A stretch of DNA of 44,729 nucleotides. It comes from a virus. A program made the position numbers and the translations under genes. The DNA lies in the IMG/VR virus record IMGVR_UViG_3300027881_001057, positions 1-44,729 of that record. One strand, written 5' to 3'. The notes below the pieces were generated by a model, which saw only the letters and a list, made by a program, of their open reading frames with translations, was not told the DNA's origin and ran no database searches. Of the stretch, positions 21,589 to 43,659 are shown in pieces (within the stretch, counting starts at the first letter, position 1; each line of letters opens with the position of its first letter).

Positions 21589-21935
21589 TATGGTGGTGTC
21601 CCTGGTCCGTCATACACGGTGTAGAGGTAGAGGTCGGATGCGAAGTATTTGGTGCCGTTGTTGACCCAGGCTTGAGCCTTGTACTCGCCTGCTGCCGCCA
21701 TGTCTGCTTTGACCCAGGTGTATGTGACGATCCCGCTGGCTGGAGTGGTCACTACGATCGTTCCGGTGCCGAACCCGGACCCGGCTAGCTCTTCTTCAAT
21801 GTTCATCTGAACGTTTGTAAAACCGGTCAGGTCTACGGCGTTCCCGTCGAAGTCGGTGAACGTAATTTGCAGGTCAGGAGGCACCTCTCCTTCAGCGAAG
21901 GCTCCTAGCTCCGTTTCGACAGGTTGAATAGCCAT
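21588..21935 (-). CDS. Ig-like / baseplate-upper-protein-type domain protein
   Basis: 115 residues from ATG 21935, coupled to the giant gene. LQITFTDFDGNAVDLTGFTN, TIVVTTPASGIVTYTWVKAD and GEYKAQAWVNNGTKYF match the strand pattern of small beta-sandwich domains at the start of phage baseplate upper proteins. Family level only, by eye. Confidence 0.6.
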   Translation of the reverse strand: MAIQPVETELGAFAEGEVPPDLQITFTDFDGNAVDLTGFTNVQMNIEEELAGSGFGTGTIVVTTPASGIVTYTWVKADMAAAGEYKAQAWVNNGTKYFASDLYLYTVYDGPGTPP

Positions 21936-24900
21936 TAGGTGCCCTCGATGATAGCTGTCTGGGTCGTGTCATACTCGGCTGCGGTGACCTTGGTCCGCTT
22001 CCCTTGTGATGTCACCGGGAAGACGAAGATGACGGGGACTCCCACGATGACAACTATCCCAATGAGGATATCGGTCTCAGCGACAGTCCCGACTGGGACG
22101 CCTTTGGCTCCGTCGATGGCTAGTAACGATTCGATTTCTGCGAGCACACCCACCTGAACAGCCTTCGCCGCGGTGACCGGGACTAGCCCATCGGTTTCGG
22201 CGAGGGTTCCTACGGATACGATTTTGATTCCGGCGACCGTCAACAACGATTCGATTTCAGGGAGGGTCCCTATGTCCACGTTGATCGGCTTGACGGCTGT
22301 AATGGCCAGCAGCGATTCGATCTCGGCGAGGGTTCCTACTTGAACTCCGCGGACGGCTCCTGCGGCTATGAGGGCGTCGGCTTCGGCGAGGGTTCCTACC
22401 GCGGTGATGATCGGTTTGACGGCTGCAATCGACAGGAGCGTTTCGACTTCGGCGAGAGTGCCGACTGGTGCAAGCTTCAGCGGCTGTACTGCCAGCAGCG
22501 AGTCTGTTTCGGGAACGGTCCCGACTGGAATGCCGTGGGCTGCTGTTATCGGCAGCAACGATTCGAGTTCTGCCAGAGTCCCAATGTCGGCGGTCTTGAT
22601 GCCTTGGACAGCAAGCAGGGCTTCGATTTCAGTGAGTGTCCCGATCTGGGCGAGCTTCAGTCCGCTGATCGTCAACAGCGATTCTGTTTCTGCGAACGTT
22701 CCGACTGGAGTGATGATCGGCTTGACGGGTGCAGCAGCGATCAGGGTTTCTAGTTCTGCGAGTGTTGTCACGTTGACGGTCTTCAACCCGCCGACCGCCA
22801 CAAGAACGTCGAGTTCAGCGAGTGTGGTCACGGCAATCGCCTGTGCCAATCCAGCAGAAACAGGGATCAGCGTATTGATTTCTGCCAGAACTCCAACCGG
22901 AGCCGTTTTCAATCCTGCAACAGGAATCAGAGATTCGACTTCAGCGAGAGTTCCGATGACTGCCGTCTTTACTGGTCCTACCGGCAGCAACGATTCGATT
23001 TCAGCAAGAACTCCAACGGCTGTGATGATGTCTTTAACCGCCTGGATCGCTACAAGACTGTCCGTCTCGGCGAGTGTTCCGATCTGGGCGATCTTGGATG
23101 GCTGAATAGCTATCAGCGTGTCAACTTCGGGGAGGACTCCCACCTGGGTAACGATCGGCTTGACCGCCGCTGCGGGCAGCAACGACTCCGCTTCTGCGAG
23201 TGTCCCAATGTCAGCAGTCTTAAACGCCTGCACTCCAATCAGGGCGTCGAGTTCAGCGACAACACCGACCGCAGTGACAATTGGTTTGACTGCTGCAATA
23301 GGCAGCAGAGAGTCGGTCTCGGACAGAGTGCCGACAGTCGCCACCTTGAGAGCCTGTACAGCGTTCAGGACATCAGATTCGGACAGCACCCCGACCGCGG
23401 TGATGATCGGCTTGACAGGTGCAGCAGCGATCAGGCTTTCGATTTCAGCGAGAACACCTACAGAGACACTCTTCAAACCGCCGACAGCTATCAGAGTTTC
23501 GAGTTCGGCGAAGGTCCCCACCGCAATGGTCTGAGCTACACCAGCAGCGACCGGGATCAGCACGTCGGTCTCTCCGAGGGTTCCAACATCCGCGGTTTTG
23601 ATCGCCTGGATTCCTATTAGGGCTTCTATCTCGGCGATGACCCCAACGAGAACGGTTTTAAGCCCGCCAACAGGAAGCAACGATTCGATTTCGGCTAGAA
23701 CACCAACCGAGGCGATGATGTCCTTCACCGCCTCAATAGCGATCAGCGAGTCTGTCTCCGTGAGCGTCCCGATGTTCGCTACCTTCAATGCTCCAGCAGC
23801 AACCAGCGATTCGACTTCTGGCAACGTACCGATGTTGACAGTCTTCAAACCGGCGATAGCGATAAGAGCGTCTAGTTCGGCGAGTGTCGCCACAGGGATC
23901 ACCTGAGTCTGGACCAGACCCACAGGAACGAGACTGTCGGCTTCAGTCAGCACACCAACATCGACAGTCTTGATGCCGCCAGCGGGTAGCAGGACCTCGA
24001 TTTCAGCGAGCGTCCCGACGTTCGCTACATGGACAGCTTGCACGCTGATCAGCGAATCTGTTTCGATCATGATCCCGACAGCGGTGATGATCGGCTTGAC
24101 GGGGTCGACAGGAACGAGACTGTCAGTCTCTCCTATTACTCCGATCACTGCCACCTTGAGGGCCTGGGCTGCGATCAGCGACTCGACCTCTGCGACTGTT
24201 CCTATGTCTACAGTCTTCAGGCCACCGACAGCCAGGAGCGTTTCGACTTCTGCGAGAGTGCCGACTGGTGCAATCTTGAGGGCCTGTACAGCGTTCAGAG
24301 TTTCGACTTCTGCGAAGGTGCCCACCGAAGCAACAATCGGTTTCACCGCGGCTATCGGAACTAGAGCGTCTGTTTCTCCGAGAGTCCCAACAGTTCTATA
24401 GATGCTGACCCCGGCAGGCAGCAGACTGTCAGTTTCGGCGAGGGTGCCTATCGGAGCAACCTTGATCGGCTGGACAACGACCAAGGCGTCCGTTTCTGCC
24501 AGGGTTGTTACGGCAATGTCCTGGCCGGTCGGTTGGACAACTTCGATCGTGACCAGAGAGTCGTTCTCGGCGAGAGTTCCGATGACGACGAGCTTCGATG
24601 GTTGGATCGGAATCAGCGCATCAGTTTCGGCCAACACTCCGACAGGTGTAATTATCGGCTTGACGGCAAGGACCGGAAGAGGTGTGTCAGCTTCGGCCAG
24701 CGTGCCAATATTGGCAATCTTCGTAGGAAGGATCGGCAACAGAGTTTCTGTTTCTGCCAATACGCCTATGGGAGCGAACTTCTCCGCGGCTATAGCCGAA
24801 GGAGTGTCGGTCTCTGCGAGCGTTCCAATCGTCGCAATTTTCTCAGCGATGACAGCTACAAGAGCGTCGGCTTCAGGCAGCACGCCGACCGGCGTGATGA

Positions 24901-26356
24901 TTGGTTTGACGGGATCAGCAGCGATCAACGTGTCAATCTCACCCAACGTTCCGATGTTTGCCAGCTTGACAGCAGCGGCAGCAATCAGCGCCTCTATCTC
25001 AGCCAACACTCCGACAGCGGTGATGATCGGTTTGACCGCGGGGATCGGATTGAGGACTTCTGTTTCGGCGAGTGTTCCGATCGTCGCGAACTTTTCGGCA
25101 GCGACAGCTATCAGCGAATTGATTTCCGCAAGAACACCAACAGGGGCAACCTTGGTTGGAGCAGCGGCAACAAGAGCGTCAGTCTCTGGAAGAACACCAA
25201 CCCCAGTAATAATCGGTTTGAGAGCAGCTATCGTGATCAGAGAGTCGGCTTCGGCCAGAGTGCCTACAGCGATTGTTTGGCCTGCCCCTCCTGGGAGGGC
25301 CAGCCGAATCCGATGGATGCGAGCAGTACCTGTCGCCGCGTTATCGACATACCCGTAGACTTCTAAGGCGTCGTAATCAGAAATCGACGCGCCGGTAACG
25401 GCCAGGTTGTAGGTCGTCTCCGTAGCCGTAAGCGCCTGGGTCCACGAGTTGATAACAGTGGACCCCTGGCGGAGTTCGAGTTCCATGGTGGCGCTGCCCG
25501 AAGGGACCGAGCCAGTAACTTCCAACGTGTGATTGGTGTCGTCGCCCGGATCGGTGACATTTCCGAGAGTCACAAGGAATGGAAACCCCTGGAGGGCTAG
25601 GGGCGTGTCCGTTTCGGCCAAGACTCCGACAGGTGTGATTATCGGGTTGACGGCGGGGACCGGAATCAAGGAATCGGTCTCGGCGAGAGTCCCAATGTTG
25701 ACTGTCTGGGCTGGAAAGGGCGAAACGATCATCGTTATGGCGATCCAACCGTCGTTCCTCGATGACGTGTGGGTGCCGGGGGTTTCGGTGTTCCCGGTAT
25801 AGGCCCGACTGTTCATCGCCACTCCAACGTGGCCTGTTCCGGCTCCTCCTCCGGTCGTCCCAATGTCGGCCTGTTCGGTGTAGCCCGAGGGTGTCGTATC
25901 AGTAAACCGGTTGTCGTTCTTCCCCTCCTGGACGACACCGAGGATCGCCAGGTAATCGTCGGTCGAGCCGGGGGTGACAGCCGGGGCGAGAGGAGTGGTT
26001 GACCTGCCGGTACTGGAACCGTGGTCGGCGTCGGAAGCACCGAGAGGGTTAGTGGCGTCATGTCCGTCGATCCGAACACAAGCCGTCACCCATGCGGCGT
26101 TAGCGGCAGCGGCGACCAGATCAGGAGCGGACGCCCCCCGAATGATGTAGCCATACCAGTATCGGTTTCCCTGACCGTCGCTACCTTCGGCGAGTTGGGT
26201 CCAGCCGGTGAGACCGGTGATCGCCGTGCCAGCGTTGGCCGAGCCGATGACCGCAATAAGTAGGTCGCCCGTTGTGGCGCTGGCCGGTTCGGTAATTGTC
26301 GGTGTTGTGTCGGCTCCGACGTTTTCAGAGGACGACTGGACTACTGGAGAGGCCAT
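21935..26356 (-). CDS. Giant repeat tail-fibre-like protein, about 54 short repeats
   Basis: 1473 residues from ATG 26356. Residues 1 to about 215 form a globular beta domain shared with the next gene upstream. Two repeats follow, then an inserted beta domain (LGNVTDPGDDTNHTLEVTGS...). About 52 further repeats run to the C-terminus. The unit is 20 or 22 residues, roughly [VI]G[TV]LAE-x-[DE]-[STA]-L-[IL]-x-[VI]-x3-K, often continuing PIIT before the next unit. It is largely acidic/hydrophobic without Cys or Trp, suggesting a beta-solenoid or elongated shaft. It ends with a hydrophobic strand and IEGT. Probably a long fibre; function inferred from module position. Confidence 0.8.
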   Translation of the reverse strand: MASPVVQSSSENVGADTTPTITEPASATTGDLLIAVIGSANAGTAITGLTGWTQLAEGSDGQGNRYWYGYIIRGASAPDLVAAAANAAWVTACVRIDGHDATNPLGASDADHGSSTGRSTTPLAPAVTPGSTDDYLAILGVVQEGKNDNRFTDTTPSGYTEQADIGTTGGGAGTGHVGVAMNSRAYTGNTETPGTHTSSRNDGWIAITMIVSPFPAQTVNIGTLAETDSLIPVPAVNPIITPVGVLAETDTPLALQGFPFLVTLGNVTDPGDDTNHTLEVTGSVPSGSATMELELRQGSTVINSWTQALTATETTYNLAVTGASISDYDALEVYGYVDNAATGTARIHRIRLALPGGAGQTIAVGTLAEADSLITIAALKPIITGVGVLPETDALVAAAPTKVAPVGVLAEINSLIAVAAEKFATIGTLAETEVLNPIPAVKPIITAVGVLAEIEALIAAAAVKLANIGTLGEIDTLIAADPVKPIITPVGVLPEADALVAVIAEKIATIGTLAETDTPSAIAAEKFAPIGVLAETETLLPILPTKIANIGTLAEADTPLPVLAVKPIITPVGVLAETDALIPIQPSKLVVIGTLAENDSLVTIEVVQPTGQDIAVTTLAETDALVVVQPIKVAPIGTLAETDSLLPAGVSIYRTVGTLGETDALVPIAAVKPIVASVGTFAEVETLNAVQALKIAPVGTLAEVETLLAVGGLKTVDIGTVAEVESLIAAQALKVAVIGVIGETDSLVPVDPVKPIITAVGIMIETDSLISVQAVHVANVGTLAEIEVLLPAGGIKTVDVGVLTEADSLVPVGLVQTQVIPVATLAELDALIAIAGLKTVNIGTLPEVESLVAAGALKVANIGTLTETDSLIAIEAVKDIIASVGVLAEIESLLPVGGLKTVLVGVIAEIEALIGIQAIKTADVGTLGETDVLIPVAAGVAQTIAVGTFAELETLIAVGGLKSVSVGVLAEIESLIAAAPVKPIITAVGVLSESDVLNAVQALKVATVGTLSETDSLLPIAAVKPIVTAVGVVAELDALIGVQAFKTADIGTLAEAESLLPAAAVKPIVTQVGVLPEVDTLIAIQPSKIAQIGTLAETDSLVAIQAVKDIITAVGVLAEIESLLPVGPVKTAVIGTLAEVESLIPVAGLKTAPVGVLAEINTLIPVSAGLAQAIAVTTLAELDVLVAVGGLKTVNVTTLAELETLIAAAPVKPIITPVGTFAETESLLTISGLKLAQIGTLTEIEALLAVQGIKTADIGTLAELESLLPITAAHGIPVGTVPETDSLLAVQPLKLAPVGTLAEVETLLSIAAVKPIITAVGTLAEADALIAAGAVRGVQVGTLAEIESLLAITAVKPINVDIGTLPEIESLLTVAGIKIVSVGTLAETDGLVPVTAAKAVQVGVLAEIESLLAIDGAKGVPVGTVAETDILIGIVVIVGVPVIFVFPVTSQGKRTKVTAAEYDTTQTAIIEGT
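22060..25275 (-). repeat. Array of about 52 degenerate 60-66 base coding repeats
   Basis: DNA-level array encoding the 20/22-residue units. Codon choice differs between copies while the protein pattern is kept, so it is an old, selected array rather than a recent expansion. Confidence 0.85.
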
Positions 26357-31214: not shown

Positions 31215-31291
31215 GGGTCTGTAGTGTCAATGGTCAAGCATTTCTGCCTTCCAAGCAGACGGTCTGAGTTCGAATCTCAGTAGGCCCTCCA
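31215..31291 (+). tRNA. tRNA-Gly(UCC)
   Basis: Acceptor GGGTCTG/TAGGCCC, anticodon loop CTTCCAA, T arm with GTTCGAATC, encoded CCA. Confidence 0.9.
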
Positions 31292-31371
31292 AGCAGCAAG
31301 CTCGAAAGAACAGAGAACAGGACAACGTTCTTGACAGACGTGGAGCAACCTTCCCGGCAGCCAAAGCCGCA

Positions 31372-31445
31372 GGATGGTCGCCAACGGCCTTCTCAGAGTC
31401 TGACGGGTCAGCTTCATGCAGGTTCAATTCCTGCCTCCCCATCCA
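31372..31445 (+). tRNA. Unresolved tRNA-like sequence with T arm and CCA end
   Basis: GCAGG-TTCAATT-CCTGC is a perfect T arm, followed by CTCCCCA-T-CCA. No 5' strand pairing with CTCCCCA was found within 90 bases upstream, and no credible anticodon loop is present. It may be a decayed tRNA gene. A GGGGAG just downstream (31456-31461) pairs with CTCCCC as a simple hairpin. Confidence 0.35.
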
Positions 31446-31513
31446 ATATGGGAACCGGGGAGAGCCAAGGCTGGCACGCTCCATAAATAGGAGTGGTGGG
31501 CGTTGCTGCTCTT

Positions 31514-31587
31514 TTCGGGGTAGTTCAATCCGGCAGAACATCTGGTTCTGGACCAGAAGGTTGGAGGTTCGACCCCTCCCCCCGAAG
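31514..31587 (+). tRNA. tRNA-Gln(CUG)
   Basis: Acceptor TTCGGGG/CCCCGAA, anticodon arm TCTGG-TTCTGGA-CCAGA, T arm GGAGG-TTCGACC-CCTCC. No encoded CCA. Confidence 0.9.
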
Positions 31588-31592
31588 CACAC

Positions 31593-31663
31593 ACCTCCAT
31601 CGTCCATGGGTAGGACTCCAGGTTCTCAACCTGGGAAACAGGGTTCGAATCCCTGTGGAGGTA
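31593..31663 (+). tRNA. tRNA-Glu(CUC)
   Basis: Acceptor ACCTCCA/TGGAGGT, anticodon arm CCAGG-TTCTCAA-CCTGG, T arm CAGGG-TTCGAAT-CCCTG. Confidence 0.92.
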
Positions 31664-31666
31664 CGA

Positions 31667-31740
31667 CGGGATATGGCGCAGCTTGGCAGCGCGCCTGGTT
31701 TGGGGCCAGGAAGTCGGAGGTTCGAATCCTCCTATCCCGA
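31667..31740 (+). tRNA. tRNA-Pro(UGG)
   Basis: Acceptor CGGGATA/TATCCCG, anticodon arm CCTGG-TTTGGGG-CCAGG, T arm GGAGG-TTCGAAT-CCTCC. Begins four bases after tRNA-Glu. Confidence 0.93.
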
Positions 31741-31743
31741 CGT

Positions 31744-31808
31744 TGACAGCCAGATCTGGTTCTCCTCCCGGATTACCGTTCGTGCCTCCCAGCCGATCCT
31801 GACTGTCA
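31744..31808 (+). other. Structured inter-tRNA spacer, closed by TGACAG/CTGTCA
   Basis: The 65-base spacer ends in a perfect 6-bp pairing and contains CCAG-AT-CTGG. It is tRNA-sized but has no T loop. Confidence 0.4.
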
Positions 31809-31811
31809 CAT

Positions 31812-31884
31812 GGCGTAGTAGCTCAACGGTCAGAGCACCACCCTGTCAAGGTGGAAGGTGGCAGTTCGAATCTGCTCTACGTCG
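31812..31884 (+). tRNA. tRNA-Asp(GUC)
   Basis: Acceptor GGCGTAG/CTACGTC, anticodon arm CCACC-CTGTCAA-GGTGG, T arm GGCAG-TTCGAAT-CTGCT. Confidence 0.93.
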
Positions 31885-31886
31885 CT

Positions 31887-31940
31887 GCGAGGCGCATAGA
31901 AAGGAGAGGGCCGGGTGCCCTGTCTGAGTGTGCGCTTCGC
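31887..31940 (+). other. Structured inter-tRNA spacer, 10-bp stem
   Basis: GCGAGGCGCA pairs with TGCGCTTCGC (one wobble) around a GC-rich centre (GGGC...GCCC). Confidence 0.45.
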
Positions 31941-31943
31941 TAT

Positions 31944-32018
31944 GGCTCCATCGTCCATGGGATAGGATCACGGACTTTCAATCCGTGGAACTGGGTTCGA
32001 GTCCCAGTGGAGTCACCA
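31944..32018 (+). tRNA. tRNA-Glu(UUC)
   Basis: Acceptor GGCTCCA/TGGAGTC, anticodon arm ACGGA-CTTTCAA-TCCGT, T loop TTCGAGT, encoded CCA. Confidence 0.93.
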
Positions 32019-32075
32019 AGAGGGGTGATCTGACCGCCCTGTCCAGCCCAGCATGGACACCCCAATCGCCCCTCT
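32019..32075 (+). other. Structured inter-tRNA spacer, 11-bp stem
   Basis: AGAGGGGTGAT pairs with ATCGCCCCTCT (one wobble); the inner TGTCCA/TGGACA forms a second stem. Followed by TTTCTTT, so a terminator is an alternative reading. Confidence 0.45.
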
Positions 32076-32080
32076 TTCTT

Positions 32081-32151
32081 TCGGGATTGGTGTAATGGCA
32101 GCACGCAAGGCTTTGGCCCTTGTGGTGGGGGTTCGAGTCCCTCGTCCCGAG
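32081..32151 (+). tRNA. tRNA-Gln(UUG)
   Basis: Acceptor TCGGGAT/GTCCCGA, anticodon arm CAAGG-CTTTGGC-CCTTG, T loop TTCGAGT. Confidence 0.9.
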
Positions 32152-32157
32152 CTTCTT

Positions 32158-32229
32158 TGCCAGGTAGCACAATGGCAGTGCAGCGCCCTGTTAAGGCGAT
32201 GGTTGAAGGTTCGAATCCTTCTCTGGCAG
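32158..32229 (+). tRNA. tRNA-Asn(GUU)
   Basis: Acceptor TGCCAGG/TCTGGCA, anticodon loop CTGTTAA, T arm GAAGG-TTCGAAT-CCTTC. One mismatch at the base of the anticodon stem. Confidence 0.88.
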
Positions 32230-32230
32230 C

Positions 32231-32299
32231 GTTGAGGTTCCCTCGGTAGGGCGACTGGGTTGTGATCCCGGTTGTGGAGTTCGACTCTCCGCCTCACCC
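32231..32299 (+). tRNA. tRNA-His(GUG)
   Basis: Anticodon arm CTGGG-TTGTGAT-CCCGG, T arm TGGAG-TTCGACT-CTCCG. Acceptor GTTGAGG/CCTCACC has one mismatch. The 3' end is C-rich (C73 as in His tRNAs). Confidence 0.75.
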
Positions 32300-32304
32300 C
32301 ATTT

Positions 32305-32377
32305 GGGGGCTTAGCTCATCAGGAAGAGCACCTGGCTTGCAACCAGGAGGTGGTCGGTTCGAGTCCGACAGCTTCCA
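32305..32377 (+). tRNA. tRNA-Ala(UGC)
   Basis: Acceptor GGGGGCT/AGCTTCC, anticodon arm CCTGG-CTTGCAA-CCAGG, T arm GTCGG-TTCGAGT-CCGAC. Confidence 0.93.
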
Positions 32378-32382
32378 CTCGC

Positions 32383-32459
32383 GTGGCTTTAGCTCAGCTT
32401 GGGAGAGCACCTGTCTGAAAAGCAGGAGGTCCCTGGTTCGATCCCAGGAGGTCACACCA
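32383..32459 (+). tRNA. tRNA-Phe(GAA)
   Basis: Acceptor GTGGCTT/AGGTCAC, anticodon loop CTGAAAA, T arm CCTGG-TTCGATC-CCAGG, encoded CCA. Confidence 0.92.
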
Positions 32460-32470
32460 TCCGCCTTGAC

Positions 32471-32479
32471 TGCTAGCAT
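32471..32479 (+). promoter_or_regulatory. Extended -10 TGCTAGCAT directly before a start codon
   Basis: TAGCAT is followed by seven bases and ATG 32487, giving a leaderless arrangement identical in spacing to that at 15176. Confidence 0.6.
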
Positions 32480-32486
32480 TTGTGTC

Positions 32487-32804
32487 ATGGCCCTCTTATT
32501 CAGTGATTCGAAGGTAGCTCTCGCTGTGGACGAGGGGACCGACCCCATCAAGGCCACGTTCGAGACGATGTACATCCTGGTCAAGACGACCGCTATCACA
32601 GCAGGCGCGCTTGACATCGAAGCCCAATGGTCCATCGACGGCAATACATGGGTGTCGTTCACGACACCTGATGACCTACCTCAGATCGTGGCAGCAGGCA
32701 ACACGTGGCTGGCCGCTCTACCTGCTAGAGCACCATTCATGCGGCTGTTCTACGACGTGACCACGGGTCCAGTTACCTTTGAACTAGCCGTCACTGGATT
32801 CTAA
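32487..32804 (+). CDS. Small plus-strand protein inside the tRNA array (structural-like)
   Basis: 105 residues (MALLFSDSKVALAVDEGTDP). Beta-rich text (DIEAQWSIDGNTWVSFTTPD; MRLFYDVTTGPVTFELAVTG) looks like a small tail or capsid accessory domain. No ribosome site; the -10 lies seven bases before the ATG, so leaderless translation is likely. Encoded between tRNA-Phe and tRNA-Arg. Confidence 0.7.
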   Translation: MALLFSDSKVALAVDEGTDPIKATFETMYILVKTTAITAGALDIEAQWSIDGNTWVSFTTPDDLPQIVAAGNTWLAALPARAPFMRLFYDVTTGPVTFELAVTGF

Positions 32805-32809
32805 AACTT

Positions 32810-32883
32810 AGCCGTGTAGCTCAATGGAAGAGCGCCAGAATACGGATCTGGGTCAAGTGGGGGTTCGAGTCCTCTCGCGGCTA
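32810..32883 (+). tRNA. tRNA-Arg(ACG)
   Basis: Acceptor AGCCGTG/CGCGGCT, anticodon arm CCAGA-ATACGGA-TCTGG, T loop TTCGAGT. Confidence 0.88.
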
Positions 32884-32884
32884 C

Positions 32885-32906
32885 TAGCATATGTTCGCAG
32901 GAACGT
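32885..32906 (+). promoter_or_regulatory. TAGCAT -10 overlapping a GTTCG-type element
   Basis: TAGCAT (32885-32890) directly followed by ATGTTCGCAGGAACGT (32891-32906), then the ribosome site AGGAGG for the gene at 32920. Confidence 0.6.
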
Positions 32907-32919
32907 CTAGGAGGAAACT

Positions 32920-33579
32920 ATGACGATTGAAACTGGGAAGCGACAAGTCCTCGTGGACGCTGTCCTCGACTTCCCGTCTGTCGGCGCAGGCGACAGTGAG
33001 CTATTGACCGTTGCCGTACCGCAGGTTCGTCTCGGGCAGGCAGTACACGTGACCCCTGCAAACAATGTGGCAGCCACCGCGTCCCAGGGCACTCTGACAA
33101 TGGATGTCATCCCCGCCGACACGAACACAGTGACCATCGATGCGAAGGTCTACACCTTCCAGACAGTGCTCCTCGTCGGAGACGGCAATGTTGCGATCGG
33201 CGCGAATGTCGGTGAGTCACAGGTCAACCTTGTCGCAGCGATCAACCTCGACGGAGTTGAGGGCGTGAACTACGGCGCAGGCATGACGAAGCATCCGACC
33301 GTGAGCATCGGCGACTTCGCTGCCAACGACGCGATCCTGACCGCCAACACTCCAGGAGTGGCAGGCGACACGATCGCCACCACCGAGACCTTCACGCCAG
33401 TCACGGACATTTTCGATGGTGCGACCCTCGGAACCACCCGAGCGGGAGCGGACTACTCAGGCCTCACAGCCTCAGGGTTCGTCTCAGCAGCAGACGTGGT
33501 ATCCGTCATCCTGGCCAACGAGACGGCAGGAGCATTGAATCCAGACTCAGGGACGTTCCGCGTCATCGTCTGGTTCTAA
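32920..33579 (+). CDS. Structural-type protein inside the tRNA array
   Basis: 219 residues from ATG 32920 with a strong AGGAGG site. Contains the phage virion-associated pattern TVTIDAKVYTFQTVLLVGDG followed by NVAIGANVGESQVNLVAAIN, found in domains of many phage structural proteins. The C-terminus is beta-type (TFRVIVWF). On the plus strand, away from the structural operon. Probably a decoration or fibre accessory protein. Confidence 0.7.
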   Translation: MTIETGKRQVLVDAVLDFPSVGAGDSELLTVAVPQVRLGQAVHVTPANNVAATASQGTLTMDVIPADTNTVTIDAKVYTFQTVLLVGDGNVAIGANVGESQVNLVAAINLDGVEGVNYGAGMTKHPTVSIGDFAANDAILTANTPGVAGDTIATTETFTPVTDIFDGATLGTTRAGADYSGLTASGFVSAADVVSVILANETAGALNPDSGTFRVIVWF

Positions 33580-33584
33580 CGATT

Positions 33585-33658
33585 GGGCATCGAGAGCAGC
33601 CGGTGAAGCCGGTTCTCTGATATAGAACTGTTGCTAGGTTCAACTCCTAGGGTGCCCA
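33585..33658 (+). tRNA. tRNA-Ile(GAU)
   Basis: Acceptor GGGCATC/GGTGCCC, anticodon arm GTTCT-CTGATAT-AGAAC, T arm CTAGG-TTCAACT-CCTAG. Confidence 0.9.
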
Positions 33659-33662
33659 CTAT

Positions 33663-33738
33663 GCACGGGAAGCTCAACTGGACGAGCATCTGTCTTACAA
33701 GCAGAAGGAAGTGGGTTCGATTCCTACCCCGTGTACCA
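33663..33738 (+). tRNA. tRNA-Val(UAC)
   Basis: Acceptor GCACGGG/CCCGTGT, anticodon arm TCTGT-CTTACAA-GCAGA, T arm GTGGG-TTCGATT-CCTAC, encoded CCA. Confidence 0.92.
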
Positions 33739-33739
33739 C

Positions 33740-33811
33740 ACGCCCAACGCCTAAATGGTGAGGCTCCCGGCTCTTAACCGGGCGAACAAGGTTCGATTCC
33801 TTGTGGGCGTA
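33740..33811 (+). tRNA. tRNA-Lys(CUU)
   Basis: Acceptor ACGCCCA/TGGGCGT, anticodon arm CCCGG-CTCTTAA-CCGGG, T arm CAAGG-TTCGATT-CCTTG. Confidence 0.92.
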
Positions 33812-33813
33812 CA

Positions 33814-33880
33814 GACCCGAAGACTCGCGTAGCGAGCGAGCGTCACCGAAAGGTGGTCGTGGTGTAAGTGCACGCGGGTC
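33814..33880 (+). ncRNA. Structured tRNA-sized RNA without a T loop
   Basis: GACCCG (33814-33819) pairs with CGGGTC (33875-33880). Inside are hairpins CTCGC-GTA-GCGAG and CACC-GAAA-GGTG (a GNRA tetraloop). The length is tRNA-like, but the T-loop consensus is absent. The following stretch to 33962 is also GC-rich and pairs locally (GAGGGT...ACCCTC). A new non-coding RNA or a processing element. Confidence 0.4.
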
Positions 33881-33962
33881 CTAAATGGAGCTAGCGTGGC
33901 CAGCGCCTTGGACGGGGCAAACGTGCTAGGCGACCCGAGGGTGTCGGCTTAACAACCCTCAT

Positions 33963-34047
33963 GGAAGGTGCCGCTGGGTTGGCTGGCAACTGGTGTCGAA
34001 TGCCAGGGTATCTTTATCGGGTAGGGGTTCGACTCCTCCACCTTCCT
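33963..34047 (+). tRNA. tRNA-Ser(CGA)
   Basis: Acceptor GGAAGGT/ACCTTCC, anticodon arm CTGGT-GTCGAAT-GCCAG, long variable arm (GGTATCTTTATCGGGTA), T loop TTCGACT. Discriminator T is unusual for Ser. Confidence 0.8.
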
Positions 34048-34049
34048 CT

Positions 34050-34115
34050 ACTGGCGGGAACGCTGATCCGGTCGCAAAGCCCCGGTAGGCCATCCCACGA
34101 GGAGGTACCGCCAGT
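34050..34115 (+). ncRNA. Structured tRNA-sized spacer closed by an 8-bp stem
   Basis: ACTGGCGG (34050-34057) and CCGCCAGT (34108-34115) are perfectly complementary and start three bases after tRNA-Ser. An inner CCGG/CCGG stem is possible. No T-loop consensus and no clear anticodon. Acceptor-like closure of a 66-base RNA. Confidence 0.45.
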
Positions 34116-34118
34116 TAC

Positions 34119-34193
34119 GAGCGTCTGATGGGAACAGGCATACCTCTCTGGCTCAAAACCAGAGGCTTCTCGGTTCGACTCCGAGGACGCTCA
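34119..34193 (+). tRNA. tRNA-Leu(CAA)
   Basis: Acceptor GAGCGTC/GACGCTC, anticodon arm TCTGG-CTCAAAA-CCAGA, T arm CTCGG-TTCGACT-CCGAG. The variable region is short for Leu. Confidence 0.85.
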
Positions 34194-34194
34194 C

Positions 34195-34272
34195 GACCTC
34201 CAGCCTACGGGCAGAGAACAGCAGAGTAGAAACGAGTACCCCTCGGAGTAAGTCGATAGCTACCCGGAGGTC
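34195..34272 (+). ncRNA. Structured spacer closed by GACCTCC/GGAGGTC
   Basis: A perfect 7-bp pairing closes a 78-base segment that fills the gap between two Leu tRNAs. Inner helices GCC-TACG-GGC and CGAG-TACCC-CTCG give a multi-arm shape. No T loop. Confidence 0.45.
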
Positions 34273-34277
34273 ACCTA

Positions 34278-34361
34278 GCCGATCTGGTGGAACGGCAGAC
34301 ACGCTGGTCTTAGGAACCAGTGCCTTCGGGCGTGTGGGTTCGACTCCCACGATCGGTACCA
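34278..34361 (+). tRNA. tRNA-Leu(UAG)
   Basis: Acceptor GCCGATC/GATCGGT, anticodon arm CTGGT-CTTAGGA-ACCAG, long variable arm (TGCCTTCGGGCGT), T arm GTGGG-TTCGACT-CCCAC, encoded CCA. Confidence 0.92.
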
Positions 34362-34379
34362 GCGGGTGCAAACCCCGTG

Positions 34380-34447
34380 GCTGGTCGCACCAGCAGCCCG
34401 ATTCCTGCATTCCGGGCCGTAGGCTGATCGAGCAGGAGAGAGATCAG
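34380..34447 (+). other. Structured inter-tRNA spacer with three hairpins
   Basis: GCTGGT-CGC-ACCAGC (34380-34394), GCCCG...CGGGC (34396-34417) and CTGATC...GATCAG (34424-34447) follow one another between two Leu tRNAs. Confidence 0.45.
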
Positions 34448-34457
34448 TCAATGTTTT

Positions 34458-34532
34458 GCGAGGATGACGGGAACTGGCATACCTCACCGGCTTAAACCCG
34501 GTGGTCTGTGGGTTCGACTCCCACTCCTCGTA
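34458..34532 (+). tRNA. tRNA-Leu(UAA)
   Basis: Acceptor GCGAGGA/TCCTCGT, anticodon arm ACCGG-CTTAAAC-CCGGT, T arm GTGGG-TTCGACT-CCCAC. Body resembles tRNA-Leu(CAA). Confidence 0.88.
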
Positions 34533-34535
34533 CTC

Positions 34536-34618
34536 GGTAGGTCCGCAATCGGCGATGCACCTTGGTTGCTAACCAAGCAGGCTTCCGGGCCTTCGGGGTT
34601 CGACTCCCCGGCCTACCT
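34536..34618 (+). tRNA. tRNA-Ser(GCU)
   Basis: Acceptor GGTAGGT/GCCTACC, anticodon arm CTTGG-TTGCTAA-CCAAG, long variable arm, T arm CGGGG-TTCGACT-CCCCG. Confidence 0.9.
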
Positions 34619-34620
34619 CT

Positions 34621-34726
34621 ACCGCTTAGCGGCGGTACGGCCCGAGAGAACTTGGGGCGAGGTCCGTTAACTTCCTCGCCGGGTGACTCCGTAACAAGTC
34701 ACTGGCCAGGGGCCGGTTCCCTGGCC
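34621..34726 (+). ncRNA. Structured spacer of consecutive stem-loops
   Basis: After CCGC-TTA-GCGG come three perfect stems: GGCGAGG/CCTCGCC (34656-34680), GTGACT/AGTCAC (34683-34702) and GGCCAGGG/CCCTGGCC (34704-34726), with loops of 11, 8 and 7 bases. No open reading frame. The most strongly structured spacer in the array. Confidence 0.5.
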
Positions 34727-34729
34727 GAT

Positions 34730-34805
34730 GCCAGCCAAGCTCATGAGGATGAGCAACGGCCTTGTAAGCCGAAGGTAGCGGGTTCGAATCCTGCGGCTGG
34801 CTCCA
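34730..34805 (+). tRNA. tRNA-Thr(UGU)
   Basis: Acceptor GCCAGCC/GGCTGGC, anticodon loop CTTGTAA, T arm GCGGG-TTCGAAT-CCTGC, encoded CCA. Confidence 0.92.
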
Positions 34806-34806
34806 C

Positions 34807-34878
34807 ACCCCTGTAGCTCAACGGAAGAGCATCCGCCTCCTAAGCGGAAGGGTCCCTGTTCGAATCGGGGGAGGGGTA
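34807..34878 (+). tRNA. tRNA-Arg(CCU)
   Basis: Acceptor ACCCCTG/GAGGGGT (one mismatch at pair 7), anticodon arm TCCGC-CTCCTAA-GCGGA, T loop TTCGAAT. Confidence 0.88.
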
Positions 34879-34879
34879 C

Positions 34880-34955
34880 TGGCCTGTAGCTCAAAGGTCA
34901 GAGCAGCGGCCTCATAAGCCGTTCGATGAGGGTTCGAATCCTTCCGGGCCAACCA
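34880..34955 (+). tRNA. tRNA-Met(CAU), elongator type
   Basis: Acceptor TGGCCTG/CGGGCCA, anticodon loop CTCATAA, T arm GAGGG-TTCGAAT-CCTTC, encoded CCA. Fully paired acceptor, unlike the initiator at 35986. It could instead be an Ile tRNA modified at C34. Confidence 0.85.
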
Positions 34956-34956
34956 C

Positions 34957-35026
34957 GCACCCGCCAACTGGAATGTGCCAGGGCCTTCTAAGCCCAGGAG
35001 TGAGGGTTCGAATCCTTCCGGGTGTA
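34957..35026 (+). tRNA. tRNA-Arg(UCU)
   Basis: Acceptor GCACCCG/CGGGTGT, anticodon loop CTTCTAA on a GGGC/GCCC stem, T arm GAGGG-TTCGAAT-CCTTC. Confidence 0.85.
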
Positions 35027-35030
35027 CCTA

Positions 35031-35102
35031 GACCTCATAGCTCAATGGAAGAGTGCCAGCGTCCGAAGCTGAGGGTTGGAGGTTCGAATCCTCCTGAGGT
35101 CA
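35031..35102 (+). tRNA. tRNA-Arg(CCG)
   Basis: Acceptor GACCTCA/TGAGGTC, anticodon loop GTCCGAA on a CAGC/GCTG stem, T arm GGAGG-TTCGAAT-CCTCC. Confidence 0.85.
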
Positions 35103-35105
35103 CGT

Positions 35106-35176
35106 GACACCGTGAGTGAATGGCTAACTACCTGGCTGCAACCCAGGAGATCTCGGTTCGACTCCGAGCGGTGTCT
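35106..35176 (+). tRNA. tRNA-Cys(GCA)
   Basis: Acceptor GACACCG/CGGTGTC, anticodon arm CCTGG-CTGCAAC-CCAGG, T arm CTCGG-TTCGACT-CCGAG. Confidence 0.9.
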
Positions 35177-35200
35177 CTACTGCGCGCTGGATATAGGTTC

Positions 35201-35686
35201 CTAGACGTGTTCTAGCGCGTCGATGAGTTCTTGGATCTCCCAGAGCATCGATTCGAAGGTAAACGACTTCTGAGAGCCTTCGTACGAAAGAATTTCACGT
35301 TCCACCATGAGATGGATGCGTGGCCGGTCGGTCGGATTCCATACGGCATGCGGAAGCCAGTGACGAACAATGAAGGGTTCCACTGGCTCATAAAACGCTC
35401 CATCTTCCCAGAAGAAGCCTGCGGGCCTGACAGGGAAATGCCACCTCTCCCGGAAAGGCGGGACATCACAATGGGGGACTACAAAGCCTCCCGGCAACAA
35501 CCGCGCCCACCACCCTTGATGTAGCGGTCCCGGCAACAAGTCGGTCAGCAGCGTCTGGTCGATGGTGGCCGTGGACCTGCCGTGGGCGATCCCGTGAGTC
35601 GCGTAGACAGTCGGTGGTGTCCACGCTGCCACTTCTAGAGCATCGAAGATCGCTACTGATTGATGTAGAGGCCCTGAATGTTCCAT
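35201..35686 (-). CDS. 2-oxoglutarate/Fe(II) oxygenase-like protein (Asp/Asn beta-hydroxylase type)
   Basis: 161 residues from ATG 35686. GGFVVPHCDVPPF gives an HxD pair (His72, Asp74); LPHAVWNPTDRPRIHLMVE gives the distal His (113) and an Arg (123), the iron and 2-oxoglutarate ligands of the double-stranded beta-helix oxygenases. WHFPVRP between them fits the core. Such enzymes hydroxylate proteins or small molecules. It is encoded antisense inside the tRNA array, overlapping the small gene at 35653 by 34 bases. Substrate unknown; a later start is possible. Confidence 0.7.
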   Translation of the reverse strand: MEHSGPLHQSVAIFDALEVAAWTPPTVYATHGIAHGRSTATIDQTLLTDLLPGPLHQGWWARLLPGGFVVPHCDVPPFRERWHFPVRPAGFFWEDGAFYEPVEPFIVRHWLPHAVWNPTDRPRIHLMVEREILSYEGSQKSFTFESMLWEIQELIDALEHV

Positions 35687-35826
35687 CGTTGGAATTCGGC
35701 TATCGGCTGGTTGTCCTCGTCGTAGAAAACGAAAGTGTCTTCCTTGTCTGTGGTGCTGTAGCGGTCAGCGGTCAGATCCAGCCTCTCATTATCGAACATG
35801 AGGAGGGTGTACTTGTTCTCGGCCAT
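35653..35826 (-). CDS. Small protein upstream of the oxygenase gene
   Basis: 57 residues from ATG 35826 with ribosome site TAGGAAG (MAENKYTLLMFDNERLDLTA..., ending FQRWNIQGLYINQ). Compact beta-type sequence. Probably coupled to the oxygenase gene, whose start lies inside it. Confidence 0.65.
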   Translation of the reverse strand: MAENKYTLLMFDNERLDLTADRYSTTDKEDTFVFYDEDNQPIAEFQRWNIQGLYINQ

Positions 35827-35844
35827 CTTCCTATCTTACTCCAT

Positions 35845-35917
35845 GGGTCCCTAGCTCAACGGACAGAGCAAGTGGCTTTTAACCACGAGGTTCTGGGTTC
35901 GAATCCCAGGGGGCCTA
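35845..35917 (+). tRNA. tRNA-Lys(UUU)
   Basis: Acceptor GGGTCCC/GGGGCCT, anticodon loop CTTTTAA, T arm CTGGG-TTCGAAT-CCCAG. Confidence 0.92.
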
Positions 35918-35985
35918 CTAAGTCTCTCGTTGCCATGCTAAGGTCTTCACTGCCAACTGTGAGGACTCTCACCGACGCAGGGTGG

Positions 35986-36051
35986 AGAAATTGGTATCTC
36001 GCCTGGCTCATAACCAGGAGGTTGCGGGTTCAAGTCCCGTCCCTGCTACCA
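35986..36051 (+). tRNA. Initiator-like tRNA-fMet(CAU)
   Basis: Acceptor CGCAGGG/CCCTGCT leaves C1 and T72 unpaired, the mark of bacterial initiators. The D arm starts TGGAG, the anticodon arm is CCTGG-CTCATAA-CCAGG, the T loop is TTCAAGT and CCA is encoded. The body follows bacterial initiator tRNA closely, but the three G-C pairs of the anticodon stem are only partly kept (TGG/CCA). Confidence 0.8.
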
Positions 36052-39730: not shown

Positions 39731-39920
39731 TGATCTGTCCTCCGAGTTTCTTCCATATCCAGGACACGCCGCCTCCGATGAGGGCGATCACGAGCACTAC
39801 TCCGATGATTCTGAGGTAGCCGAGCACTGCGTCTGTGCCACCGATCATGAAGATGATGATCCCCCATATGACTGCTGGTACGGAAAGCCAGATGAGACTC
39901 CCGATGATCCATCTAGTCAC
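39723..39920 (-). CDS. Two-span small membrane protein
   Basis: 65 residues from GTG 39920, which overlaps the upstream stop. WIIGSLIWLSVPAVIWGIII and YLRIIGVVLVIALIGGGVSW are two hydrophobic spans with a basic end (WKKLGGQ). Function unknown. Confidence 0.6.
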   Translation of the reverse strand: MTRWIIGSLIWLSVPAVIWGIIIFMIGGTDAVLGYLRIIGVVLVIALIGGGVSWIWKKLGGQIND

Positions 39921-40401
39921 CGAGTACCTCGCTTGGTAGCCGGTCTTCGTGGTAGGGGCAGAAGGCCAGTACGCCGTCGCCCATGACAACGAACAGGTCA
40001 TCAGCGTCGAGTGTGGAGTTCCAGTCGTGGTCGCGCAGGTCAGTTAGGTGCCTGTCGTAGATGTCGTAGAACCAGAGTCCGTTGTCGAAGTCGTCGCAGA
40101 CGCTTCGGATAAGCAGTACGAGTTCTGTGTCGGTGATGTCGTATGCCCATCCACCGTTGGTTGTTAGCCGCAGGTCATCGACTACATCCTGCGTACGAAC
40201 GTTTAACAGGGGCAGGGAAGTGGTTGGGCCGGGGACGACCACGATATCTACGGTTTTGAGTGTGACCGTGGTCATGGGTGTGGCGACGATGACTGTGGGT
40301 TCGGCGGCTGGACTGTTGATGATGGCGTTGATGATGGTGAACGCGACGAAGGCTCCGAATGCGGCAGCAGCGAGGAATCCGAGAGCGGCCTTGTATATCA
40401 A
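39913..40401 (-). CDS. Membrane-anchored or secreted protein, unknown
   Basis: 162 residues if it starts at TTG 40401, which overlaps the upstream stop; ATG 40434 adds 11. The N-terminus IYKAALGFLAAAAFGAFVAF is a signal anchor. A Thr/Pro linker (ATPMTTVTLKTVDIVVVPGP) is followed by a soluble domain with ELVLLIRSVCDDFDNGLWFY. Extracytoplasmic domain probable. Confidence 0.6.
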   Translation of the reverse strand: MIYKAALGFLAAAAFGAFVAFTIINAIINSPAAEPTVIVATPMTTVTLKTVDIVVVPGPTTSLPLLNVRTQDVVDDLRLTTNGGWAYDITDTELVLLIRSVCDDFDNGLWFYDIYDRHLTDLRDHDWNSTLDADDLFVVMGDGVLAFCPYHEDRLPSEVLGD

Positions 40402-40667
40402 ATGCGCTTGCCGTAACCGTGGTCGAATGGGCACTGCTCGATCCTGACCAAAAGTTCTTGGATCTGCTCGACTACGTCAGGTTCGAAGAGTCGTGCTGAC
40501 CCTGAGCCGTGAGCGTGGACTACTGGTGTGATCATTTCGTTGCGCACCCAGTTGTCCAGCATGCGATATGTGATCCCTGACCGCTGGGCAACCTGCGCAG
40601 AGGTCAGCAGGTCGGGGTAGTCCCCTGCATTGCTGGTGGCCACGTAGTCGGGTGTGGTTGACTTCAC
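40398..40667 (-). CDS. MerR/BldC-like helix-turn-helix protein
   Basis: 89 residues from GTG 40667 (GTGA overlap with the upstream stop). LLTSAQVAQRSGITYRMLDN followed by WVRNEMITPVVHAHGSGSARLF is the MerR-type HTH and wing, with EPDVVEQIQELL after it. Single-domain members act as excisionase-like or BldC-like DNA-binding regulators. Confidence 0.8.
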   Translation of the reverse strand: MKSTTPDYVATSNAGDYPDLLTSAQVAQRSGITYRMLDNWVRNEMITPVVHAHGSGSARLFEPDVVEQIQELLVRIEQCPFDHGYGKRI

Positions 40668-41226: not shown

Positions 41227-41466
41227 TCAGCGGTTTCGTTTTCTCTGAGCACGCGCAGTCTTGTTCTTCTTCCGTCGTTGTCTCTTCTCCTGTTCGCGGG
41301 TCTTTCGTTCAGCGAATGCAGCGATCCCTTCCTGGCGTTCTGCGATGAGGATGCGAGCTTCGTCAGCACGGAGGGGAATCATGTCCTGCATCCGTTTGCC
41401 CAACATTTCGACTTCATCGTCGGTGTAGACGTTGCCGGTGTTCGGGTCCACTACAAGCCTCTGCAT
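41227..41466 (-). CDS. Small very basic protein, unknown
   Basis: 79 residues from ATG 41466 (MQRLVVDPNTGNVYTDDEVE). The C-terminus is Arg/Lys-rich (RKTREQEKRQRRKKNKTARA). Probable nucleic-acid-binding or disordered. Overlaps the lysin stop. Confidence 0.6.
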   Translation of the reverse strand: MQRLVVDPNTGNVYTDDEVEMLGKRMQDMIPLRADEARILIAERQEGIAAFAERKTREQEKRQRRKKNKTARAQRKRNR

Positions 41467-41984
41467 TCTCCCCGGTTATACGGTGACCATTGAGTCCAGC
41501 CTGCGGCGTTCTGCAACCAGGCTGCGGCACGCACATTGGCTTCGGGCTGGTAGACCATACCCGAGTCGTAGGACCCGCCTGTCACTTCTCTGGGGACCAT
41601 GTTATCCCATGTGGATCTGAGGAACTGGAATAATCCTGCTGCTGACGATCGCTGGTTCTTGGAGTTGGGATCGCCTGTGAACCCTGTTTCGTAGGCGAGG
41701 AGGCACATGGCGGTGTTCACCTTGTTGGCTGCGAAGTGGCTGGCTACTAGGGGACGCCACTGTTCGACTGATCCTGACCAGGTGGAGGGAGTGCTTCTGG
41801 TCGTGGTGGTGCTGGCTGGCTGGGGATCGAAGTACCAGGGGTGGCGTTCGCTCATGTCTGCTAGGTCGGCGAGTAGCTGCGCTGTGAGACCGTAATCTGC
41901 CTGGGCTGACCACTCCTCCATCCAGTCGTCTAGTTGAACGTTCGTATGAAAGAATAGTCCCAATACAAGTAGAGCTACTAGCAA
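41451..41984 (-). CDS. Lytic transglycosylase / lysozyme-like lysin with signal anchor
   Basis: 177 residues from TTG 41984. The N-terminal hydrophobic segment (LVALLVLGLFF) is a signal anchor. A Thr-rich linker (about 55-70) leads to a domain with LLAYETGF (catalytic Glu99), SSAAGLFQFLRSTW (115-126) and QPEANVRAAAWL, the fold of goose-type/SLT lysozymes that cut peptidoglycan. It lies directly after holin-like genes. Either the endolysin or a virion muramidase. Confidence 0.8.
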   Translation of the reverse strand: MLVALLVLGLFFHTNVQLDDWMEEWSAQADYGLTAQLLADLADMSERHPWYFDPQPASTTTTRSTPSTWSGSVEQWRPLVASHFAANKVNTAMCLLAYETGFTGDPNSKNQRSSAAGLFQFLRSTWDNMVPREVTGGSYDSGMVYQPEANVRAAAWLQNAAGWTQWSPYNRGECRGL

Positions 41985-42008: not shown

Positions 42009-42221
42009 CTATGTGGGCTTGTTGCTCAGTCCGTAGACGCCACCACCCGCGATGATGACCGCGAGGAGGATGACCATCCACTGGTTGAAGCTGATAGTGG
42101 TCAGGCTGTTTCCTGGTTCAAGAGTGACCAGGATGATTCCTTGGAGAAGCACGGTGACGACAGCGAAGACAGCCTTGGCTGCTTTCTGTGCCTCGGTGAC
42201 TGCTGTCTTGAGGATCGTCAT
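42009..42221 (-). CDS. Holin-like membrane protein
   Basis: 70 residues from ATG 42221 (MTILKTAVTEAQKAAKAVFA). Two hydrophobic spans: AVFAVVTVLLQGIILVTL and WMVILLAVIIAGGGVYGL. Size, topology and position before the lysin match holins. Confidence 0.65.
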   Translation of the reverse strand: MTILKTAVTEAQKAAKAVFAVVTVLLQGIILVTLEPGNSLTTISFNQWMVILLAVIIAGGGVYGLSNKPT

Positions 42222-42242: not shown

Positions 42243-42443
42243 TCATTCCTCTTCTTCGGACCCTTGGTTCCGAGCCTTGAATTTCTGCCACCTTTTACGA
42301 GGTTCGAACGTCTGGATCACAAGCTGCCACAGGACGAGCACACCGCCGAAAAGTCCGATGGTGACCAGCAGGGGGTTGAGTTCGCCTACCCAGTCAGGCA
42401 GGGCCGGAACCCAGGTGTGGTCAGCCAGAATCGTCATCATCAT
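42243..42443 (-). CDS. Single-span small membrane protein, possible second holin
   Basis: 66 residues from ATG 42443. One span (PLLVTIGLFGGVLVLWQLVI) then a basic and finally acidic tail (EPRKRWQKFKARNQGSEEEE). Adjacent to the holin-like gene, so a regulator or pinholin is possible. Confidence 0.6.
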   Translation of the reverse strand: MMMTILADHTWVPALPDWVGELNPLLVTIGLFGGVLVLWQLVIQTFEPRKRWQKFKARNQGSEEEE

Positions 42444-42500: not shown

Positions 42501-43202
42501 CTACTGCTTCAGGCGTCGAACCCGCTTCCACGATCCGGTCGCGGTCAGGAAGAGTAGTCCCGCTCCCAGGAGGGAGGCTGCTAGTAGGGCTAGGTCCGCT
42601 TGGTTCCCCCCCGTCAGGGGGAGCGATTTTGGGTCAGTCGTAGTGGGTGTCGTTGGGACTGTTGTAGATGGGGTGGTGACGGTTGTGGCGGGGACGGTGG
42701 TCGTTGTCGGGTCTGTAGTCACAGTCGTCGTCGTCACAGGCAGGGTTGATGTTGTTGTTTCCTGCTCTGTCGTCGTCGTTATCGCAATCGATGACGAGGT
42801 TGTTGTAGAGAGGGTCGTGGTGGTGGTGGGCGCTGATGTTGTTGTCCCCTCTGTTGTCGTCGTGGTCTCTTCTGGAACCGTAGTCGTCGTGGTCGTGACT
42901 GGCTCGTAGCAGAGGATGACGTGGCTGATGTCCTTCTCGCCGGTCTGCCAAAAGTAGGCCGTGCCGACAGTGGGGTTGGGGATCTCCTGATTCTGGTCAG
43001 GACCCGATCCGGCCTTCAGGACCAGTAGGGTCCATACCTGACCTTGCGGAGGTGCTGGCACCACGAAGGGTGTGTCGACCGGCTCGATCTTGATGCCGGT
43101 GGCGCACCAGTGGTCAACTTGGTTGGTGTCGGTGGCAATAGCTGTCAGACCCAAAAGTCCGATAAGGACGACGACGATCGACAGGCCGAGTAGCTTTCTC
43201 AT
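42501..43202 (-). CDS. Cell-wall-anchored surface protein (LPxTG sortase signal)
   Basis: 233 residues from ATG 43202 after a GGGAG site. Signal peptide MRKLLGLSIVVVLIGLLGLT. Folded domain (about 30-105) with two Cys (DHWCATG; HVILCYE). A Thr/Pro-rich stalk (about 105-190, e.g. ETTTTTEGTTTSAPTTTTTL). Then LPLTGG (194-199), a hydrophobic span (LALLAASLLGAGLLFL) and the basic tail WKRVRRLKQ. This is the full sorting signal of sortase substrates, so the host's sortase would attach it to peptidoglycan. Gene order places it next to the lysis genes. Role could be surface modification or receptor masking (inference). Confidence 0.85.
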   Translation of the reverse strand: MRKLLGLSIVVVLIGLLGLTAIATDTNQVDHWCATGIKIEPVDTPFVVPAPPQGQVWTLLVLKAGSGPDQNQEIPNPTVGTAYFWQTGEKDISHVILCYEPVTTTTTTVPEETTTTTEGTTTSAPTTTTTLSTTTSSSIAITTTTEQETTTSTLPVTTTTVTTDPTTTTVPATTVTTPSTTVPTTPTTTDPKSLPLTGGNQADLALLAASLLGAGLLFLTATGSWKRVRRLKQ

Positions 43203-43309
43203 GGGTCTCCCTCAGTGTAAGTGTTGTGTTCGGACTGGGCGAGCATGCCGAGTAACACACCCGCCCGGTCCTTTCTTGAGGCCGATTTCTGCGTCCGACC
43301 TCAATGCTG

Positions 43310-43462
43310 TCAGTCAGTTCCCTCGTATGCGGAGTCGGGTCCCATCCTGTCTGCCTGCTCCCGCGCCGGAAGGATCTCGGGCACGTAAATCGCCAGCCCG
43401 ATCACCAGGACCATCCAGAACACTCCGAGGAATACCCCGACCGTTATCAGTATGTCTTCCAT
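43310..43462 (-). CDS. Single-span small membrane protein
   Basis: 50 residues from ATG 43462 (MEDILITVGVFLGVFWMVLV..., ending DSAYEGTD). One span VFLGVFWMVLVIGLAIYV. Its leader TGATCCCATGGAA also precedes the gene at 44299. Confidence 0.55.
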   Translation of the reverse strand: MEDILITVGVFLGVFWMVLVIGLAIYVPEILPAREQADRMGPDSAYEGTD

Positions 43463-43491: not shown

Positions 43492-43659
43492 CTACAAGTG
43501 GTCGACAGTCTCAACGAAGAGCAGGAAGGTTCCGAGGCCTCCAGTGATTATCAGCAGTACCCCGAGGATCGCCCGCAGGATCTCTTCCCGCTTGTAGATG
43601 GCCATGCCGGAAGCGACGAAGAGCGCCCCGATCGTGAACGGCATCAGAAAGTCGATCAT
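43492..43659 (-). CDS. Two-span small membrane protein
   Basis: 55 residues from ATG 43659, overlapping the upstream stop (ATGA). Spans FTIGALFVASGMAIY and AILGVLLIITGGLGTFLLFV. Could be a holin or antiholin. Confidence 0.6.
   Translation of the reverse strand: MIDFLMPFTIGALFVASGMAIYKREEILRAILGVLLIITGGLGTFLLFVETVDHL

Follow-up and report, generated by a model that had tools for sequence, protein, structure and literature searches.

We identified a gene near the right end of a viral contig whose 233-aa product is very probably a sortase-type surface protein and is likely to be anchored by the sortase of its host. The best explanation for this gene, which we favor with moderate confidence, is that it is a moron of actinobacterial origin that has been passed between otherwise unrelated phages and whose sortase-anchored product alters the surface of the infected cell. 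The window, i.e. the whole stretch of DNA that was analyzed, corresponds to a linear virus record in IMG/VR with a length of 44,729 bases, in which the genes run from right to left and small genes cluster at 36-44 kb. The features of the gene and of its surroundings are collected in Table 1.

Table 1. Coordinates of the 233-aa protein gene, its parts, its neighbors and the main structural genes of the window
Feature	Coordinates	Strand	Basis
Sortase-substrate-like protein, 233 aa	42501..43202	-	Sequence, homologs
Ribosome-binding site GAGGGAG-ACCC ahead of ATG	43203..43214	-	Sequence
Predicted Sec signal peptide, residues 1-23, AIA/TD	43134..43202	-	Sequence; hydropathy by eye
Head domain, residues about 24-101, C33 and C98	42900..43133	-	Alignments, AlphaFold
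Thr-rich stalk, residues 102-191	42630..42899	-	Sequence
LPLTGG sorting motif, residues 194-199	42606..42623	-	Sequence
Hydrophobic span and basic tail, ...TGSWKRVRRLKQ plus stop	42501..42605	-	Sequence
Predicted membrane protein, 55 aa, upstream of the 233-aa gene	43492..43659	-	Translation; span by eye
Predicted membrane protein, 50 aa, directly upstream of the 233-aa gene	43310..43462	-	Translation; span by eye
Single-span membrane protein, 66 aa, directly downstream of the 233-aa gene, holin-like size	42243..42443	-	No family match
Membrane protein, 70 aa, two hydrophobic spans, holin-like size	42009..42221	-	No family match
177-aa protein, N-terminal hydrophobic stretch and SLT transglycosylase-like domain	41451..41984	-	Pfam SLT
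Terminase	15197-16801		
Portal-like protein	13183-14820		Position and size
Major capsid	10199-11131		
Tape-measure-like protein	Runs off left end		Position and size

The ORF proposed in the initial annotation was borne out on the minus strand, as were the elements named in it, since a signal peptide, a two-Cys head, LPLTGG, a hydrophobic span and a basic tail can all be read from the sequence. The start codon is the ATG at position 43202, which is preceded by what we rate as a good ribosome-binding site, and the N-terminal sequence (MRKLLGLSIVVVLIGLLGLTAIA/TD) is, as judged by eye, consistent with a Sec signal peptide. Both of the only two Cys residues in the protein are found in the ~75-residue head. 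The stalk is indeed long (90 residues), but its description as Thr/Pro requires correction, as it is chiefly Thr with some Pro (57% T, 10% P, and 8% S). The C-terminal order is LPLTGG, NQADLALLAASLLGAGLLFLTATGSW, and KRVRRLKQ, with a mean hydropathy of 2.24 for the span after the motif and a charge of +5 for the tail; the Pfam Gram_pos_anchor model did not match the 233-aa protein. Third-position GC of the head (0.75) is close to that of the capsid gene (0.73). Over 110-112 residues, the protein is 50-52% identical to its versions in two other phages, and this conservation at the protein level indicates that the gene is translated. A promoter scan found no site, and terminator matches were as numerous as expected from shuffled sequence.

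The complete sorting signal of the 233-aa protein is not a product of chance and lies far above the chance rate. We employed a strict test demanding LPxTG, a span with a mean hydropathy >2.0 and ≤1 charge, and a basic end, which was passed by 5 of the 17,449 unique ORFs (each ≥60 aa) from the fetched loci, compared to 0.05 per set when the ORFs were amino-acid-shuffled. Four of the five are head-family proteins (window, L102/L104, L106, and L117), while the fifth is a frame just downstream of a Saccharibacteria head gene (L115). No phage ORF without the head domain passed among these 17,449 ORFs. It should be noted that the five ORFs are not a census, because some of the loci were fetched for carrying the head.

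Using tblastn, neither the whole protein nor two homolog heads matched any of 50,697 phage records, and the head matched none of 72,556 plasmid records; back-translated single-sequence scans of viral and genome contigs also returned nothing. A hand-made KDISHxxxC pattern identified homologs in seven cellular-genome loci and two viral contigs, an alignment scan revealed a third viral contig with the head, and scanning viral records once more with all three phage heads yielded no additional record. In alignments, the conserved motifs of the window head are W-C-x-TG, K-x-EPV-x-TP, WTLLVLKAG, and KDISHVILC, and it carries all of the family hallmarks (K-x-EPV-x-TP, W-x-LL-x-KAG, KDISHxILC, and two Cys, the latter present in 16/16 heads). 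It matches the family HMM with an E of 1e-35, although the window head is itself part of that model. AlphaFold predicts a confident, compact beta-domain (pLDDT 92, pTM 0.82). The head has no Pfam, PHROG, PDB, or BFVD match, a PDB sequence search with the protein found no relative, and the best E values in a fold search with the head model were 0.23 (PDB) and 0.11 (viral proteins). The head defines a domain family that is as yet undescribed.

The cellular homologs originate from Microlunatus parietis, a Propionibacteriaceae MAG, three actinobacterial MAGs, and one Saccharibacteria MAG, and they are arranged as a signal peptide, head, and low-complexity stalk, with several ending in LAATG, LPATG, or LPRTG followed by a span and basic tail. 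The heads of the actinobacterial proteins (L087/L108, L091/L113, L096/L107, L100/L200, and L201) are homologous to that of the window with 46-53% identity, and these proteins share its two Cys, low-complexity stalk, and layout. They differ in being cellular genes with a longer loop before the first Cys, and several have LAATG or are without a clear LPxTG, whereas the window protein has LPLTGG; the presence of LAATG instead of LPxTG in some cellular homologs is a point against the favored explanation. The family is rare, and its actinobacterial members would be wall or secreted proteins. With the seed genomes excluded, it was found in 2 of ~244 genomes in the order of Microlunatus, in 1 of ~245 genomes from the order to which the lake MAGs belong, and as 1 weak match in ~394 genomes across the phylum. 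In four head-family proteins from Propionibacteriales (L196, L197, L198, and L199), the last residues are exactly LPKTGN, PPKTGN, LPQTGD, or LPSAGN; no membrane span follows the sorting-like motif, and such a C-terminus fits no standard sorting signal. On the Saccharibacteria MAG contig (L089/L115), the head resides in a 523-aa frame and the adjoining frame ends in LPYTG plus a span and basic tail, which may reflect either a binning error or an epibiont that has a surface domain in common with actinobacteria.

Two further phage types in IMG/VR also encode the head. The first (L102/L103) has a 265-aa head protein with LPHTG near the small and large terminase subunits and a DUF932-like gene, while the second (L106) has a 284-aa head protein with LPVTGS upstream of portal, protease, and capsid genes. 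The terminases in one and the portal and capsid genes in the other identify both as true phages. Their proteins fall into the same phage subfamily as the window protein, which they resemble in having a signal peptide, 'WCxTG' head, Thr stalk, LPxTG, span, and basic end, except that their stalks are longer and include an extra Cys-bearing stretch (CDEENGREC...GICC). Pairwise comparison of the three phage types, including the window, found almost no other protein in common, which argues that the gene moved on its own. In a head tree, the three phage heads group with a support of 92/90, which is not decisive given 94 columns. All of the phage heads also have a Cys directly after the conserved Trp, where a loop present in the cellular heads is deleted. 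This grouping and the common loop deletion fit a single entry into phages and subsequent transfer from phage to phage, which we infer from the sequences. Furthermore, none of the three phage types has lost the LPxTG, the membrane span, or the basic tail, a pattern suggestive of selection for these elements. Viruses seem to be passing around a bacterial surface protein and redecorating the cells they infect, and the carriers are probably phages of actinobacteria. The proposal that this phage encodes a sortase substrate is well supported at the sequence level by the anatomy of the protein, the cellular homologs of the same layout, and the two further phages.

IMG/VR contains many terminase relatives of the window phage, with identities of 42-89% and lengths of up to 149 kb. 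One distant relative is a named phage (MK557849, 39% in the terminase). Neither the head nor an LPxTG protein of the same layout is present in any of the readable terminase/capsid relatives, including three of 144-149 kb, and SLT and head proteins sought in 32 terminase/capsid relatives were not found. Less weight can be given to this absence because, at 82-89% terminase identity, the nearest relatives are represented by short contigs, which stop before the region of the 233-aa gene. The initial annotation had suggested looking for the gene in relatives, and the outcome is divided: readable records of its own phage family are without it, as expected of an accessory gene, whereas two further phage types carry it. 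Its presence is sporadic and independent of the phage backbone, which is characteristic of a moron, with coverage of the nearest relatives being incomplete. The view that phages rarely encode sortase substrates likewise agrees with our searches, both of the 50,697 phage records and of the readable records of its own phage family. Prophage precedents do exist, such as SasX, a wall-anchored LPXTG protein on a PhiSPbeta-like staphylococcal prophage (PMC10232760).

Several other features of the window were observed. The 1473-aa protein at 21935-26356 consists mainly of short, degenerate VGTLAETDSLxxxxAxKP-type repeats, and related repeats occur in two relatives (L137 and L154). A 161-aa protein (35201-35686) has a weak aspartyl/asparaginyl beta-hydroxylase match (E 3e-4, just below cut-off) and homologs in three relatives (L010, L016, and L060). 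The 173-aa membrane-anchored protein at 39913-40434 weakly resembles DUF732 (E 0.005, below cut-off), whose members are secreted proteins of actinobacteria. A tandem array near the right contig end (44569-44647) comprises 2.8 copies of a 28-bp unit with 92% matches, and the unit contains the palindrome GGTCATACGTATGACC, which is operator or iteron-like. The window also encodes 27 tRNA genes at 31215-36051, all on the plus strand, opposite to most surrounding genes.

In the mechanism we propose, a gene for a wall-anchored surface protein would have arisen in actinobacteria and would now be moving between unrelated phages. During infection, the protein would be made in the host cell and exported by Sec. 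Sortases cut between the T and G of LPxTG and then link the protein to the wall. The host's own sortase would presumably cut LPLT/GG and join the protein to peptidoglycan, and the predicted disulfide-bonded head would be held out beyond the wall on its Thr-rich stalk. Once displayed, the head would change the surface of the infected cell, and the likeliest benefit would be that further phages are kept from adsorbing or that progeny are spared loss to debris or already infected cells. Of the roles considered, we find such a reduction of adsorption or progeny loss the likeliest, with adhesion or aggregation as its main rival and lysis next. That the protein serves mainly to block superinfection or receptors is still a tentative hypothesis, and nothing in the sequence of the 233-aa protein points to phage receptors. 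A more far-reaching view, which we consider rather doubtful, is that a phage-specific subfamily of this undescribed head domain spreads among unrelated actinobacteriophages as a surface-remodeling module dedicated to turning the host's sortase on competing phages, which would amount to a sortase-dependent superinfection-exclusion system.

A role as an adhesin or aggregation factor that aids the infected or lysogenic host (biofilm, attachment), i.e. as a conversion gene like SasX, seems a minor but real possibility. The head-on-stalk layout is typical of surface adhesins, SasX provides a precedent (PMC10232760), and a temperate lifestyle would be compatible with a weakly matched 89-aa excisionase/MerR-like gene at 40398-40667. 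However, no integrase was seen among the window genes examined, and in our judgement the 27 tRNA genes and the 144-149 kb relatives suggest a large virulent phage. Membership in the lysis system, with a wall-anchored or membrane-held protein that sits beside the holin-like proteins and the SLT muramidase and positions or times wall breakdown, is unlikely. The initial annotation had placed the gene in a lysis-end operon, and this is accurate insofar as a compact run of genes on the same strand begins 57 bp downstream, with two genes for small membrane proteins and one for an SLT-type muralytic protein anchored in the membrane. This membrane/wall cluster may be a lysis cassette, and the SLT protein is the only member of it that the family models recognized (E 4e-4, just under the curated cut-off). 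Nevertheless, the terminase and structural genes lie downstream of the 233-aa gene, and the other two phages have it beside either the DUF932-like gene and terminase pair or the portal gene. A fixed lysis role is the weaker reading, since the gene surroundings differ among the three phages. The 233-aa protein has no spanin or hydrolase domain, we found neither a lysis domain nor a constant place in a cassette, and the cellular homologs reside in varied contexts that, by eye, include no evident lysis gene and offer no functional hint. It is less probable still that the protein is a secreted or released decoy, or is attached to the virion, with the sorting signal as a leftover membrane anchor. 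The stalk and head could be shed, and some cellular homologs stop at LPxTG-like residues with no span, but the apparent selection for an intact sorting signal in all three phage types argues otherwise. Finally, a host fragment, either misassembled onto the phage contig or packed by chance, is highly improbable. The gene does sit roughly 1.5 kb from the end of the contig, and the relatives compared have no homologs of this region, but the strand and composition of the gene match the neighboring small phage-like genes, the closest relatives of its head are from two other phages rather than cellular genes, and the same gene occurs in three separate phage types.

A phage-borne LPXTG protein is a kind that is already known from SasX (PMC10232760). 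The window gene and SasX both encode a phage-borne, wall-anchored surface protein on a mobile accessory gene, which is a likeness in general kind only, as SasX belongs to a staphylococcal prophage, has been studied in colonization, and differs in its host, head, and setting. The openly available literature yielded nothing apt on actinobacteriophage LPXTG proteins or sortase-dependent exclusion. Ltp, a lipoprotein of Streptococcus phage TP-J34, is a prophage superinfection-exclusion surface protein. Like the window protein, it is a phage protein shown on the surface of the infected cell, but it is lipid-anchored, whereas sortase anchoring is predicted for the window protein. What appears to be new is the head family, its presence in otherwise unrelated phages, and the unmatched head itself. 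As we read it, unrelated phages here exchange a wall-anchored surface protein as cargo, and its confidently modeled head has no counterpart in any domain library or among solved folds. If the protein blocks other phages, it would represent a sortase-dependent form of superinfection exclusion, and if it alters adhesion, phages would be a vehicle by which surface traits spread among actinobacteria in the environment.
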